A DNA stretch of 64,000 nt from Rhodohalobacter sp. 614A. Lineage in GTDB: Bacteria > Bacteroidota > Rhodothermia > Balneolales > Balneolaceae. Below the pieces are notes generated by a model. It was not told the origin of the DNA. It was given only the letters and a program-made list of their open reading frames with translations, and searched no databases. The DNA lies in contig NZ_JAKEDS010000001.1 of NCBI RefSeq assembly GCF_021462415.1, positions 1,894,273 through 1,958,272 of the forward strand. Direction: 5' to 3'. The position numbers and the translations under genes are program-made. Of this stretch, positions 32,157 to 37,340 are shown piece after piece (position 1 is the first letter of the stretch; each line of letters begins with the position of its first letter).

Positions 32157-33233
32157 TTATTCAATAGTAAGAATATCTCCAAGAATACCGGCCGCCGTAA
32201 CCTCTTTGCCGGCTCCCGGACCTTGTATGACCAACGGCTGATCGTAGTATCGTTTTGTTTTTATCTGAACCAGGTTATTGGTTCCGGTCAATTGACCAAT
32301 GGATGATTCTTTTGCTACAGCTTTGATCCCGATTTTGATCTCTCCATTTTTCAAAACTCCAACATATCTCAATTTCTTTCCGGCCTCATCAGCTTTAGAA
32401 ATTTTTTCACTCCAATCCTTATCAAACTTATAGAGCTCTTCCAGGAATGTAGTGGAGTCCACATCTTTTAATTGTTCGGGGATTAATGACTCAACTTTCA
32501 AATCGTCCCGTTCCAGTTTTAATCCGCAGATTCTTGCCAGAATCATGAATTTTCGGGCTACATCTTCGCCGGAGAGATCATCGCGGGGATCGGGTTCAGC
32601 ATATCCCAAGCTGCGCGCTTTTATCACAGCTTCACTGAAACTGTTCCCCTTGTCCAATTCAGAAAACAGGTACGTCATGGTTCCCGACAGAACACCGCTG
32701 ATTTCAACTATTTCATCCCCGGTTTGAATGAGGCTTTTGATGGAGTTTAGAATTGGCAATCCTGCACCTACATTTGTTTCATACAGAAAATGAACGTCGT
32801 GCTCTTCAGCAAGTTGATGCAGCGATTCAAACGATTCCTGGCTCTGTGTATTGGCAAGCTTGCTCGGGGTAACTACATGGATTTTCTCCTTCAATAGTTG
32901 AGGATAAAGTTCAGTGGTATCGAGGCTGCCGGTTGCATCTATAAAAATTACAGATCCTTTTTCGTAAGAAGACAATTTATCGATGATAAAGTCCCAGTCT
33001 TTTTCGGGGCCTTTCAAGAGATCTGTCAGTGTGTAATTACTTTGGGTATGATCGTACCACAAAACATGCTTGCGATTGCAAACCCCAAGAACCCGCAGTG
33101 ATTTTTTGTGGCCGTTAACGGAGACCTGTTTTAAAAGTGTGCTTCCAACTGCACCAACGCCTGCAATGAATATTTTTTTCACTTGTTTCGCTTGATCTGC
33201 AGTTGCTTTCTTATATGCTTTCAATTGTGACAT
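32157..33233 (-). CDS. hom: Homoserine dehydrogenase
   Basis: 358 residues from ATG 33233, one base after the metX stop; longer in-frame starts lie inside metX. NAD(P)-binding GVGAVG at 25-30, then FIDATGS, LYETNVGAGLPI, GVLSGTMTYL, and the catalytic region LGYAEPDPRDDLSGEDVARK with its conserved Lys. The sequence resembles the homoserine dehydrogenase half of bifunctional ThrA/MetL, without the kinase and without an obvious ACT domain. It reduces aspartate semialdehyde to homoserine, which the two preceding genes turn into homocysteine. Confidence 0.95.
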   Translation of the reverse strand: MSQLKAYKKATADQAKQVKKIFIAGVGAVGSTLLKQVSVNGHKKSLRVLGVCNRKHVLWYDHTQSNYTLTDLLKGPEKDWDFIIDKLSSYEKGSVIFIDATGSLDTTELYPQLLKEKIHVVTPSKLANTQSQESFESLHQLAEEHDVHFLYETNVGAGLPILNSIKSLIQTGDEIVEISGVLSGTMTYLFSELDKGNSFSEAVIKARSLGYAEPDPRDDLSGEDVARKFMILARICGLKLERDDLKVESLIPEQLKDVDSTTFLEELYKFDKDWSEKISKADEAGKKLRYVGVLKNGEIKIGIKAVAKESSIGQLTGTNNLVQIKTKRYYDQPLVIQGPGAGKEVTAAGILGDILTIE

Positions 33234-33234
33234 A

Positions 33235-34281
33235 TTAATAGCTGAGGCTATGTTTCTTTTGGATAAATGATTCAATAATTTCATTGATCTGATCAAATTC
33301 TATCAGAAAAGCATCGTGTCCGTACGATGATTGGATTTCATGGTATTCGCCGTTTTTCAATAATTTGGCAAGATCTTTCTGTTCCTGGATGGAATAAAGG
33401 TGATCGGAATCAATTCCAATAACCCGTACCGGAATATTCACCCGGCCAAGTACTTCTTCAAAAGATCCCCTTCCCCGCGATACATCATGCGAATCCATCG
33501 CTTCCGTTAAGATGATATAGGAGTGCGCATCAAATCGCTCGGCAAGTTTCGCGCCCTGATAATCCAGGTACGATTCAACCTGAAATTGAGAAGAATCAGC
33601 CTGGAGATTTCGTCCGAATTTTTTGTCATAATCAGAAGGGGCCCTGTAGGTAATCATCGCCATCATGCGAGCGGTGGCGAGTCCCTCTTTCGGGCCTTCT
33701 CCTTTTTTATAATGACCGTTTTTCCATTCGGGATCGGTATAAATTGCTTTGCGCTGGGCATGGCTGATTCCAATGGCCCACGGACTGTGTGATTTGCCCA
33801 TGGCAATGAGGGCGGCGGATTGAATACGCTCATCCATCACTACAAATTCAAGTGCCTGCATTCCTCCCAATGAACCGCCAAGTACCAGCTCAATTTTTTT
33901 GATTCCAAGCTGATCCAAAAGTTGTTGCTGGAAGCGGACCATATCGCGGACGGTAATATCCGGGAAGGAGTTTTGATAAGGTTCTCCGGTTTCAGGATTT
34001 GTAGACCACGGTCCAACAGATCCGTAAGGACTTCCCGGTACATTTATACAGATGATGAAGTTTTTTGCAGGATCACAAACTCTTCCCTCCCCGAAAATTC
34101 CGGGAAACCATTCATCAGCGGCGGCGTGGCCTGTAAGGGCATGGCAGATCAAAATAACATTATCTTTCTCTTTGTTGAGAGAGCCCCATGTTTTATATGC
34201 CACTTCCGGTTCTTCAAACCGGGCACCGGCCTCAGTGATAAAAGGCTTTTTTAATTTATCTGTGATAATTCCTTCATTCAT
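33235..34281 (-). CDS. metX: Homoserine O-acetyltransferase
   Basis: 348 residues, alpha/beta hydrolase fold. Opening EVAYKTWGSLN, HALTGHAAADEWF, the VPGSPYGSVGP loop, nucleophile Ser137 in GGSLGG, and SSYGHDAFLIE containing the catalytic His. It activates homoserine with an acyl group, normally acetyl-CoA; MetX proteins can also be succinyl- or other acyl-specific. The presence of metY next door argues for acetyl. It lies 77 bp after metY with a strong hairpin between them. Confidence 0.95.
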   Translation of the reverse strand: MNEGIITDKLKKPFITEAGARFEEPEVAYKTWGSLNKEKDNVILICHALTGHAAADEWFPGIFGEGRVCDPAKNFIICINVPGSPYGSVGPWSTNPETGEPYQNSFPDITVRDMVRFQQQLLDQLGIKKIELVLGGSLGGMQALEFVVMDERIQSAALIAMGKSHSPWAIGISHAQRKAIYTDPEWKNGHYKKGEGPKEGLATARMMAMITYRAPSDYDKKFGRNLQADSSQFQVESYLDYQGAKLAERFDAHSYIILTEAMDSHDVSRGRGSFEEVLGRVNIPVRVIGIDSDHLYSIQEQKDLAKLLKNGEYHEIQSSYGHDAFLIEFDQINEIIESFIQKKHSLSY

Positions 34282-34358: not shown

Positions 34359-35729
<1,371 letters not shown>

Positions 35730-35803: not shown

Positions 35804-35860
35804 AAAAAGCCTCTTCCGAAATCCAGTTCCCGTGGGAAAGATTTTCAGAAGAGGCTTTTT
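35804..35860 (-). terminator. Terminator of the SAM riboswitch expression platform
   Basis: A 13-bp perfect stem (AAAAAGCCTCTTC at 35804-35816, GAAGAGGCTTTTT at 35848-35860) with a T tract on the minus strand. It sits 20 bp after the aptamer and 117 bp before metY, the standard layout of a transcriptional OFF switch. Confidence 0.9.
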
Positions 35861-35880
35861 GTTTGATCGTGCCTTATCGT

Positions 35881-36007
35881 CTTATCTTCCCCAGGTTATA
35901 ACGAAAATGTTAAAACCGGGCAGGATTTAGCACCTGACTTCACGCAATTCCTGCCTGAACGGTTGCTAAGGTTTCTCAGGGCCTGTCCCTCCACCTTTCT
36001 GGATAAG
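35881..36007 (-). promoter_or_regulatory. SAM-I (S-box) riboswitch aptamer
   Basis: Read on the minus strand: P1 CTTATC (36007-36002) pairs with GATAAG (35886-35881). Between them are the hallmark core elements AGAAAGGTGGAGGGA, GGCCC, GAAACC, TTAGCAACC and AGGTGCTAAATCCTGC. This is an excellent match to the SAM-I consensus. SAM binding should favour the downstream terminator and shut off metY-metX-hom. Confidence 0.97.
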
Positions 36008-36049
36008 ATTTCAATTTGTTAAAGAACTCATCCGCGGCTTGCGGCTAAC

Positions 36050-36080
36050 AAAAAAGCCCAGCTGGCAACCAGAGGGCTTT
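36050..36080 (-). terminator. Attenuator terminator of the cysteine leader
   Basis: On the minus strand AAAGCCC-T-CTGG-TTG-CCAG-CT-GGGCTTT is followed by TTTTG: two stacked stems of 7 and 4 bp with a U tract. Its 5' arm segment CCCTCTG (36076-36070) is exactly complementary to CAGAGGG (36113-36107) directly after the leader peptide stop, so an alternative antiterminator helix is possible. Confidence 0.7.
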
Positions 36081-36115
36081 CAATTTCTTTCGAAAAAAAA
36101 GACGTTCCCTCTGCA

Positions 36116-36142
36116 TTACGTGCTACAACAACACATACACAT
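36116..36142 (-). CDS. Putative leader peptide MCMCCCST
   Basis: ATG TGT ATG TGT TGT TGT AGC ACG TAA on the minus strand (36142 to 36116): eight residues, four of them Cys and two Met. It is framed by the inverted repeat TCTGCAT (36150-36144)/ATGCAGA (36116-36110). It precedes an attenuator-type terminator and the SAM riboswitch of a sulfur amino acid operon. There is no clear Shine-Dalgarno; TTGACG (about 36179) and TATCTG (36152-36147) spaced by about 17 bp could be a promoter, giving a near-leaderless message. Cysteine-codon leaders are known in mycobacteria; that this one is translated is inference. Confidence 0.6.
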   Translation of the reverse strand: MCMCCCST

Positions 36143-36248
36143 TATGCAGATACAATAATCAATATTATTCGTCAAATTTTTCATTACTCAATAATACGAG
36201 AGAAACGTCTATACTTGCAAGATTTTTTTAGAGATACATTTAAAATCT

Positions 36249-37340
36249 TTAAAAACGAATTTCGGTGATAATTTCCAGTCTTGAAATATTATCGGTTTCC
36301 CCATTTTCCTGATACCAATTTCGGCGCACATTGAAAATGATTTTCGAATGATTGGGAAAAATGTAAGCAACACCGCCAACCGCTTGTCTTTCAATCCAAT
36401 TGTTAAGATCCCGGTTAATGATCTCATCAAACCGGTTGGTTAGTGCAATGGGCAGATTGTCGAATGGTTTTATTTCGAGAAACATACTCCATCCCTTTAA
36501 ATCAATCGGTTGGAGAGACTGTGTCACAAATTCACCGGAGGCATCTCCTGTACTAATAAATCCCTGAATGACAGAAGCCCAATGCTTTGATTCATACGAT
36601 AAAGCTGTGCCTCCAAGCCTGAAATCCGGGCTTTCCGGTATATTTCCTTCACCGACCGAACCGATCAGGCTGGTTTGAAAGCCAGGCAAATGATCGGGCA
36701 AAGGCCGGAGTGTAAAACGGCCTTCAAGCAGCTTATTATTGTTGCGTTCCAGGGCTGAATATCCGCCTCCGTTGTAGACTCCAAAACTCAGGCTTCCGTA
36801 CCTGCCGGGGTAAGATGATTGAACTTCTTCCTGGTATTCCTCATCAAGTTCTCCTCCTAAAAGTGAGGAGAAAGTGACACCGTAATCGGCGGAACTTACA
36901 ATTCCGTTTTGATCCAAAAACATTGATTCCTGCGAGCGGTAGTCGTTTATCTTTTGCTCAAAATCAATCCAGGGCCGATGAACAACACCGAGTTCCAGGT
37001 TCGGGCTAGTGAAAAACCCTTTGTCTTCGAAGTTGAGTTTCAGGAGAGCATATTTTAAACGGAGCTCAATATTTCCTTCGCCATCGCCTTCCTGGTCGAT
37101 CGATACATCCTGAGTGAATCGAATTTCTGCCATTTCCGACAAATTCTTCCGAAAAGTTATGTATCCCCGCTGAATAGTGAACTCATTATTAACCGCTTCA
37201 TCTTCAAAAATTCGCTCAAAAGAAAAAAAGAACTGGCCGCTGAAATCGACGGTTTTATCAAAATCTTGTGAATATAAAGCAGAGGGAAACAATAGCAATC
37301 CCAGTAAAACCCATCTCATGGCAGGAAATTTGGTAATCAT
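36249..37340 (-). CDS. Porin (OprO/OprP-like outer-membrane channel)
   Basis: 363 residues. Signal peptide ends near ALYSQ. The mature start VDFSGQFFFSFERIF and FTIQRGYITFRKNLSEMAEIRFTQD are typical of the phosphate-selective-porin-like family, with long-range amphipathic strands and a C-terminal EIRF. An alternative ATG at 37319 would shorten the n-region by seven residues. The substrate cannot be told; the family transports anions in Pseudomonas, but many FCB members are uncharacterised. It is 97 bp after era on the same strand. Confidence 0.8.
   Translation of the reverse strand: MITKFPAMRWVLLGLLLFPSALYSQDFDKTVDFSGQFFFSFERIFEDEAVNNEFTIQRGYITFRKNLSEMAEIRFTQDVSIDQEGDGEGNIELRLKYALLKLNFEDKGFFTSPNLELGVVHRPWIDFEQKINDYRSQESMFLDQNGIVSSADYGVTFSSLLGGELDEEYQEEVQSSYPGRYGSLSFGVYNGGGYSALERNNNKLLEGRFTLRPLPDHLPGFQTSLIGSVGEGNIPESPDFRLGGTALSYESKHWASVIQGFISTGDASGEFVTQSLQPIDLKGWSMFLEIKPFDNLPIALTNRFDEIINRDLNNWIERQAVGGVAYIFPNHSKIIFNVRRNWYQENGETDNISRLEIITEIRF

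Follow-up and report, generated by a model that had tools for sequence, protein, structure and literature searches.

The window, a 64,000-nucleotide stretch of the Rhodohalobacter sp. 614A genome, carries on its minus strand the genes metY, encoding O-acetylhomoserine sulfhydrylase (34359 to 35687; TIGR01326, 692 bits, cut-off 495), metX, encoding homoserine O-acetyltransferase (33235 to 34281; PRK00175, 390 bits, cut-off 331), and hom, a homoserine dehydrogenase-like gene (32157 to 33296) whose best NCBIfam match, PRK09436, scores 382 bits and lies under its cut-off of 726. The best match of MetY in named records is from Rhodohalobacter sulfatireducens, at 89% identity, and the next matches are from Balneolaceae or are labelled Bacteroidetes. 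Upstream of metY, a porin-like frame of the same strand has its end at 36249. Between this frame and metY, the minus strand holds in order a promoter-like site, a leader ORF, a protector hairpin, an antiterminator, a first intrinsic terminator, a boxA-like element, a SAM-I riboswitch and a second intrinsic terminator.

The leader ORF, MKNLTNNIDYCICIMCMCCCST, spans 22 codons from an ATG at 36184 to 36116, is conserved in relatives and contains six cysteine codons, with first bases at 36154, 36148, 36139, 36133, 36130 and 36127. A sequence-only reading of the window had described a nine-codon frame at 36142 to 36116 with four cysteine codons. That frame is real, but it makes up the 3'-terminal part of the longer frame, and a nine-codon leader was ruled out because the frame reads back to the ATG at 36184 and relatives repeatedly show comparable N-termini (MKN, MKK). 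The mutually exclusive pairing arms proposed in the same reading were all located in the sequence: the protector hairpin (36150 to 36110) joins TCTGCAT (36150 to 36144) with ATGCAGA (36116 to 36110), the antiterminator (36113 to 36070) joins CAGAGGG (36113 to 36107) with CCCTCTG (36076 to 36070), and the first intrinsic terminator (36081 to 36050) consists of a hairpin at 36081 to 36052 and a U run at 36055 to 36050, with GGGC and U6 at 36059 to 36050. Folding of 36190 to 36045 gave the protector and terminator hairpins together (MFE -40.1, z -3.67, 0 of 200 shuffles as stable); taken alone, the terminator reached -15.8 kcal/mol (z -3.0, 3 of 200 shuffles) and the protector -15.1 (z -1.9, 13 of 200 shuffles).

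Downstream of these elements, the SAM-I aptamer that had been recognized from the sequence alone was confirmed by Rfam (RF00162, 36009 to 35879, 76.5 bits against a gathering score of 44.4) and is the one SAM-I match in the searched 4.69 Mb genome. Its expression platform contains the second intrinsic terminator (35860 to 35804), which folds at -31 kcal/mol (z -7.1, 0 of 200 shuffles as stable). From reading of the sequence, ATCTTTCCC (35842 to 35834) can pair with GGGGAAGAT (35892 to 35884), and this pairing would constitute the SAM-I antiterminator.

The leader in the Balneolales

A survey of SAM-I across 128 genomes of the order found 136 matches, spread over 114 of these genomes, and the sequences at all 136 were retrieved. 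Assignment of the downstream genes by tblastn placed 114 sites before metY, a number that includes L108, whose match is weak (28%), and L216, whose SAM-I match is below the Rfam cut-off. The other 22 sites were assigned by eye to metH-like genes, with an NCBIfam check for two of the 22 that returned partial frames with 485 to 1132 bits to methionine synthase models.

We scored as a leader any ATG frame of at most 45 codons with at least three cysteine codons within 400 nt upstream of SAM-I. Such a frame was present at 94 of the 114 metY sites and at 0 of the 22 metH sites. In 20 rounds of dinucleotide shuffling, 15.2 of 114 sites had one on average and 22 at most; the reverse complement gave 10 of 114, and a block farther upstream gave 13 of 110. 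With at least four cysteine codons the count was 61 of 114 metY sites versus 2.9 in shuffles, and with at least five it was 37 versus 1.3 (10 rounds). The metH genes provide an internal control, having SAM-I in the same order with neither a cysteine leader nor a boxA-like element, and a cysteine leader as a general feature of SAM-I leaders was ruled out on their count.

The 20 metY sites without an ATG leader of three cysteine codons divide into nine with a weaker frame (two cysteine codons, or a GTG start), which were added by hand to give 103 leaders for the later counts, and 11 with none by this test. Sites of SAM-I before metY occur in 36 genera and five families of the order, and the 103 leaders cover 31 of these genera and all of these families. 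The 11 sites at which the test found no leader are L088, L092, L108, L129, L147 and all six of genus g19; the boxA-like motif GTTCTTT is kept in 10 of the 11. L129 has a methionine-rich frame with one cysteine (MKKVMSMSMSMMSCLGG, translated by eye). The six members of genus g19 (L172, L184, L187, L189, L196 and L216) come from rather small assemblies and keep SAM-I, with a boxA-like element in five of the six, at sites where the cysteine leader is absent.

Searching the window's own genome for further leaders with the core pattern of this one returned the window's own copy as the only exact match and 31 inexact matches, versus 18 for a reversed-pattern control; four inexact matches were inspected, and the one with two mismatches falls inside a 128-codon open frame. 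A frame with at least three cysteine codons was absent from the 600 nt before Cys/Met-enzyme-like genes at 10 of 11 loci, while L282 has one with a TTG start. At 51 of the 114 metY sites (for example L002), a small gene for a putative CoA-binding domain stands between SAM-I and metY, where the window has no room for one.

Cysteine codons, pairing arms and flanking elements

The sequence-only reading had proposed checking the cysteine codons for conservation as codons, and their conservation in relatives was borne out, with some homologous columns swapping TGT and TGC. Among groups with alignable C-termini, which were picked by hand with L201 left out of one, columns that are all cysteine but mix the codons comprise 8 TGC and 2 TGT (10 of 10 sequences), 4 and 4 (8 of 8), and 11 TGT and 2 TGC (13 of 13); all-cysteine columns with a single codon also exist (13 of 13 TGT and 8 of 8 TGT). 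Adjacent cysteine pairs occur in all four codon combinations (55, 38, 15 and 5). Within the window's genus, the DNA of the leader core ATGTGTATG hardly varies, which makes codon constraint and base constraint indistinguishable there. Comparing frames across the 103 leaders, frame 0 has the highest number of cysteine codons in 75, is tied in 23 and is lower in 5; the +1 frame has at least three in 47, cysteine codons being common in that frame because an ATG followed by T creates TGT. Cysteine accounts for 18.7% of residues in these leaders, which were selected by cysteine count, and methionine for 13.6% (counted after the first residue). Since methionine codons are enriched too, the signal may be cysteine plus methionine.

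A terminator-like hairpin follows 98 of the 103 leaders, that of L082 being very weak (-1.1 kcal/mol); of all leaders tested, only five, from genus g22 of family f2, gave no passing hairpin. In four of these five (L099, L110, L120, L140 and L158), the boxA-like element lies within about 10 nt of the stop codon. Median duplex energies are -16.1 kcal/mol for the antiterminator and -16.75 for the protector; mononucleotide shuffles give -8.35 and -9.7, respectively, and substitution of the arm of another species gives -12.8 and -13.3.

Base pairs were counted in 30 of 98 sequences, picked with regular expressions that match GAGGG-like and CCCTC-like motifs, with ten loci excluded by name and three reference sequences lengthened upstream to take in GTG- or TTG-start frames. 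Antiterminator pairs were counted by anchors, as the MAFFT alignment moved the terminator arm by one or two columns. In these selected relatives both protector and antiterminator show compensatory changes, in agreement with the covariation expected of the proposed arms. The protector has 84.8% of cells paired and 17 double-change cells, and 0 of 500 shuffles reach either value or the covariation score, an excess that among related sequences is partly shared ancestry; sliding the protector arms lowers pairing to 30-60%. The number of protector pairs with a double change is four, which 178 of 500 shuffles reach, and the number of further pair types is reached by 80 of 500. At antiterminator pair 6 the 30 sequences have A-T in 20, G-C in 6, G-T in 2, T-A in 1 and T-T in 1; pair 7 can form in 29 of the sequences and pairs 1 to 5 in all 30, much of the latter being imposed by the selection motif. 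Since selection by motif itself imposes conservation on antiterminator pairs 1 to 5 and on part of the protector, the genuine covariation in this set comes from antiterminator pair 6 together with protector pairs 43/92, 45/90 and 47/88.

The spacing of these elements is also consistent with attenuation. The antiterminator segment ends a median of 26 nt after the last cysteine codon and 12 nt after the stop codon, both medians being partly fixed by the search windows for the segment. A ribosome covers roughly 12-15 nt downstream, so a ribosome stalled at the cysteine codons would free the antiterminator segment and one that finishes the leader would cover it.

Upstream of the leaders, the pattern TTG-N20/21-TA, with TA 11-15 nt before the leader start, was found at 64 of 103 leaders versus 1 of 101 in a control displaced by 100 nt, and TTGCA within 60 nt at 47 of 103 leaders versus 6 of 101 in the control. 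The predicted promoter of the window (36220 to 36189) has TTG at 36220 to 36218, a 21 nt spacer and TATTATTG at 36196 to 36189. A promoter scan in the window picked out TTGCAA/TATTAT with a spacing of 18, whose 9 of 12 matches are at chance level for that scan. The Bacteroidota promoter pattern places the start at or just before the leader ATG. Given the constant spacing between this promoter-like site and the leader, transcription of metY probably starts at the leader, at a predicted position near 36185, rather than between 36047 and 36007, and the mRNA would be leaderless or nearly so. An additional outer stem between 36209 to 36201 and 36109 to 36101, offered earlier as a further alternative fold, did not hold up: it can be written in the window, but it was not seen by eye in the near relatives L117 and L124, and its upstream arm precedes the predicted start, so that it probably lies outside the transcript.

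Between the first terminator and the aptamer lies the boxA-like element GTTCTTTAACA (36027 to 36017), with the motif GTTCTTT. In the order, 107 of 114 metY sites and none of the 22 metH sites have this motif within 60 nt upstream of the aptamer. Of eight rRNA leaders, seven also contain it, at 85-181 nt before 16S, and these seven represent 4 of 5 genomes, the window's own included. Several of the rRNA leaders are copies within one genome, and two further genomes contributed no 16S match; in the own genome the rRNA-leader copy lies at -97, at a contig end (GTTCTTTATAATATTGAA). Outside the order the motif is rarer, at 5 of 54 sites of the class among the matches listed, one of them before metH (L244), and at 4 of 28 further sites checked. 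By analogy with rRNA leaders, the element is a putative binding site for NusB/S10 and would likely help polymerase to traverse untranslated RNA without being terminated by Rho. In rRNA leaders boxB precedes boxA, an order that is resembled in the window by a short hairpin (CCGC...GCGG, 36044 to 36032) directly before the boxA-like element. The place of this element between two gates raises the question of whether regulatory leaders use the rRNA antitermination machinery to pass through long untranslated RNA.

A proposed two-input gate and its alternatives

Comparison among relatives establishes the leader, the conservation of its cysteine codons, the alternative arms, the two terminator hairpins and the aptamer, and it supports the earlier proposal that a cysteine attenuator and SAM-I stand in series before metY. 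We consider it highly probable that these parts make up a ribosome-mediated attenuator responding to cysteine, perhaps to cysteine plus methionine, in series with a SAM-I terminator switch. The metY-metX-hom mRNA would start at or just before the 22-codon leader ORF, and coupled translation of the leader would sense charged Cys-tRNA and possibly Met-tRNA. When Cys-tRNA is ample, the ribosome would reach the stop codon and cover CAGAGGG, allowing terminator 1 to form; when the leader is not translated at all, the protector hairpin would hold part of the CAGAGGG segment and terminator 1 would form too. Stalling at the cysteine codons would cover the 5' protector arm and leave CAGAGGG free to pair with the 5' arm of the terminator, and the polymerase would continue. 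It would next pass the boxA-like site and meet SAM-I with its own terminator, where read-through would occur only at low SAM. Full expression of metY in the cell would then require that Cys-tRNA and SAM are both low. By combining a sensor based on a translating ribosome with a metabolite riboswitch, the region before metY would form a candidate natural AND gate, conserved across the order.

A role for cysteine in the control of metY suggests that the gene answers not only methionine demand but also, by way of homocysteine, the demand for cysteine. Conversion of homocysteine to cysteine is made plausible by two enzymes encoded in the genome, one CGS/CGL-like (PRK07811, 518 bits, cut-off 513) and one CBS-like (TIGR01137, 431 bits, under the cut-off of 510). 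Homocysteine may therefore feed cysteine, and this would explain why a cysteine sensor is found on metY and not on metH. Counting against such a role, the genome has a serine acetyltransferase-like gene (158 bits to the EpsC model, cut-off 150; 167 bits to the cysE model, under 211) beside cysM (483 bits, cut-off 413), so that cysteine need not depend on MetY.

The attenuator might be just as described with total sulfur amino acids, through Cys-tRNA and Met-tRNA together, as the signal sensed, a reading that we hold possible but somewhat doubtful. The methionine share of leader residues (13.6% beside 18.7% cysteine), the frequent alternation of the two and the L129 frame with its one cysteine and many methionines all speak for it. 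Methionine has a single codon, however, which makes the synonymous comparison used for cysteine impossible, and the ATG triplets could instead act as internal starts or take part in RNA pairing; outside the order, several leaders end in cysteine runs with little or no methionine, and SAM-I already reads methionine status. A quite different use of these residues, as a working metal-binding microprotein with SAM-I as the sole regulator, appears very unlikely. The string CMCMCCC presumably resembles a thiol/thioether metal ligand, but the cysteine spacing, N-terminus and C-terminus differ between genera, and the coding DNA overlaps pairing arms tied to a terminator and is present at metY but absent at metH.

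The first hairpin could also be the terminator of the porin gene and nothing more, with the cysteine frame below it a product of chance: the porin-like frame does end at 36249 on the same strand, and shuffles show that frames with three cysteine codons arise by chance in about 13% of cases (15.2 of 114). The window's porin, however, has matches upstream of only 2 of the 103 leaders (L001, which is the window, and L124), era stands upstream of 44, no farther than 400 nt away in 39 of them, none of the 22 metH sites has a leader, and the arms covary. These neighbours rule out the hairpin at 36081 to 36050 as a mere porin terminator, and that reading as a whole, chance frame included, is scarcely credible. 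For some members of the order, attenuation might instead be Rho-dependent, with the leader ending next to boxA in place of an intrinsic terminator and with boxA/NusB modulating Rho. The five g22 leaders, four of which have boxA within about 10 nt after the stop codon, would suit this variant, and roles of boxA and rut in Rho-dependent termination at tna are named in a title cited in PMC1262725; given an intrinsic-type hairpin at 98 of 103 leaders, the window included, we regard it as improbable.

Related systems and arrangements outside the order

The individual parts of the proposed cysteine and SAM gate are of known kinds, and their combination, a cysteine leader attenuator in series with SAM-I, is apparently new within the open-licence literature searched: a full-text search of open-licence PMC papers found no leader-peptide attenuator in series with SAM-I, and the matching passages of PMC8079986 and PMC1273637 do not describe a cysteine attenuator in such a series. 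Leaderless polycysteine short ORFs of mycobacteria are Cys-responsive attenuators (Canestrari et al. 2020, as cited in PMC13236596 and PMC9031893), and the Balneolales system would share with them a leaderless or nearly leaderless multi-cysteine short ORF before sulfur genes and the sensing of cysteine by translation speed. The passages citing the mycobacterial system describe it as regulating downstream translation, whereas intrinsic terminators at the Balneolales metY leaders point to transcription control, with protector and antiterminator arms and SAM-I in series; the phylum and the target gene differ as well. The uORFC-8-2 motif of cysS in Rhodobacterales likewise combines a Cys-codon uORF with an intrinsic terminator and a prediction of ribosome-mediated attenuation (PMC8632094), but it has two tandem cysteine codons and precedes a cysteinyl-tRNA synthetase gene, and the passages that describe it mention no riboswitch. 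Leader peptides upstream of cys operons or cbs in Actinobacteria share frames with cysteine runs with the Balneolales leaders and differ in that the relevant passages of that study report no conserved terminators and no RNA structures upstream of methionine operons (PMC1262725).

Leaders that read two signals are also known. In Bacillus clausii, metE is preceded by tandem SAM-I and AdoCbl riboswitches (PMC2258182), so that, as proposed here, two independent terminators, one of them of SAM-I, stand in series before one methionine gene; there both sensors are ligand-binding riboswitches, while here one would be a translating ribosome. The tandem attenuators of Salmonella mgtCBR similarly bring two signals into one leader, one of them through the proline codons of a short ORF (PMC3641672), but the signals, ATP and proline, are additive, and a metabolite riboswitch goes unmentioned in the passages matched. 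A Xanthomonas SAM-I that also binds uncharged tRNA-fMet makes a met-gene leader read both SAM and aminoacylation state (PMC7270179); in contrast to the window, the tRNA binds the expression platform directly and control is translational, and the account as matched mentions no leader peptide. Mycobacterial B12 riboswitches occur with uORFs, and the pairing of riboswitch and short ORF resembles the reversed order outside the Balneolales described below, although the ligand is B12, control is translational and cysteine codons are not named in the matching text (PMC11260477). Transcriptome papers on Bacteroidota mention leader-peptide-like frames or attenuation, with cysteine unnamed in the passages concerned (PMC9723704, PMC7366714), and the authors of a 2010 survey state, in the part matched, that until their own case in Firmicutes they knew of leader-peptide systems in Proteobacteria and Actinobacteria alone (PMC2965389).

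Beyond the order but within the same class, the 54 SAM-I sites among the matches listed include no CMC-type leader, and 7 of the 54 pass the three-cysteine ORF test, about the shuffle rate within the order. Two of these seven, L225 and L226, have a common CRSC-AC short frame upstream of SAM-I, which may be another type of cysteine leader.

We also compared a wider set of 56 other metY loci (L026-L081), mostly from Bacteroidota and some from other phyla. A frame with at least three cysteine codons was present in the 700 nt upstream of metY at 23 of 56 loci versus 8.35 in shuffles, with at least four at 12 versus 2.45 (maximum 5), and with at least five at 7 versus 0.55. SAM-I lies within 500 nt before metY at 26 of the 56 loci, and in 11 of these 26 (L026, L027, L030, L039, L040, L043, L055, L070, L071, L073 and L081) the two elements stand in the opposite order, with an ORF that starts at most 16 nt from the 3' end of the aptamer and ends in or near a cysteine run or cluster. 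The leaders of L040 and L043 are identical, which leaves 10 distinct opposite-order leaders. At the other 15 sites the ORF there has few or no cysteine codons, or there is none. Several leaders outside the order have terminal cysteine runs and little or no methionine.

These arrangements can be joined in a single reading, which we put forward tentatively, its chances falling a little short of even: a two-input RNA gate, in which a ribosome would read cysteine codons and an aptamer would read SAM, may govern homocysteine synthesis in Bacteroidota and relatives and have been assembled in two opposite orders. On this joint reading, the Balneolales form would be a serial transcription control, made of a cysteine attenuator with its terminator, boxA as a loading site for NusB/S10, and SAM-I with its terminator. 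In several other orders SAM-I would come first, with its P1 strand abutting the start of a leader of about 30-50 codons, and SAM would gate translation of the cysteine sensor.

Other metY loci of the wider set depart from both arrangements. L034 and L080 have a cysteine-rich leader before metY with no SAM-I close by, and at L041, a Prolixibacteraceae metY locus lacking a SAM-I match, a SAM-II aptamer (1068 to 1128) lies about 1.9 kb upstream.
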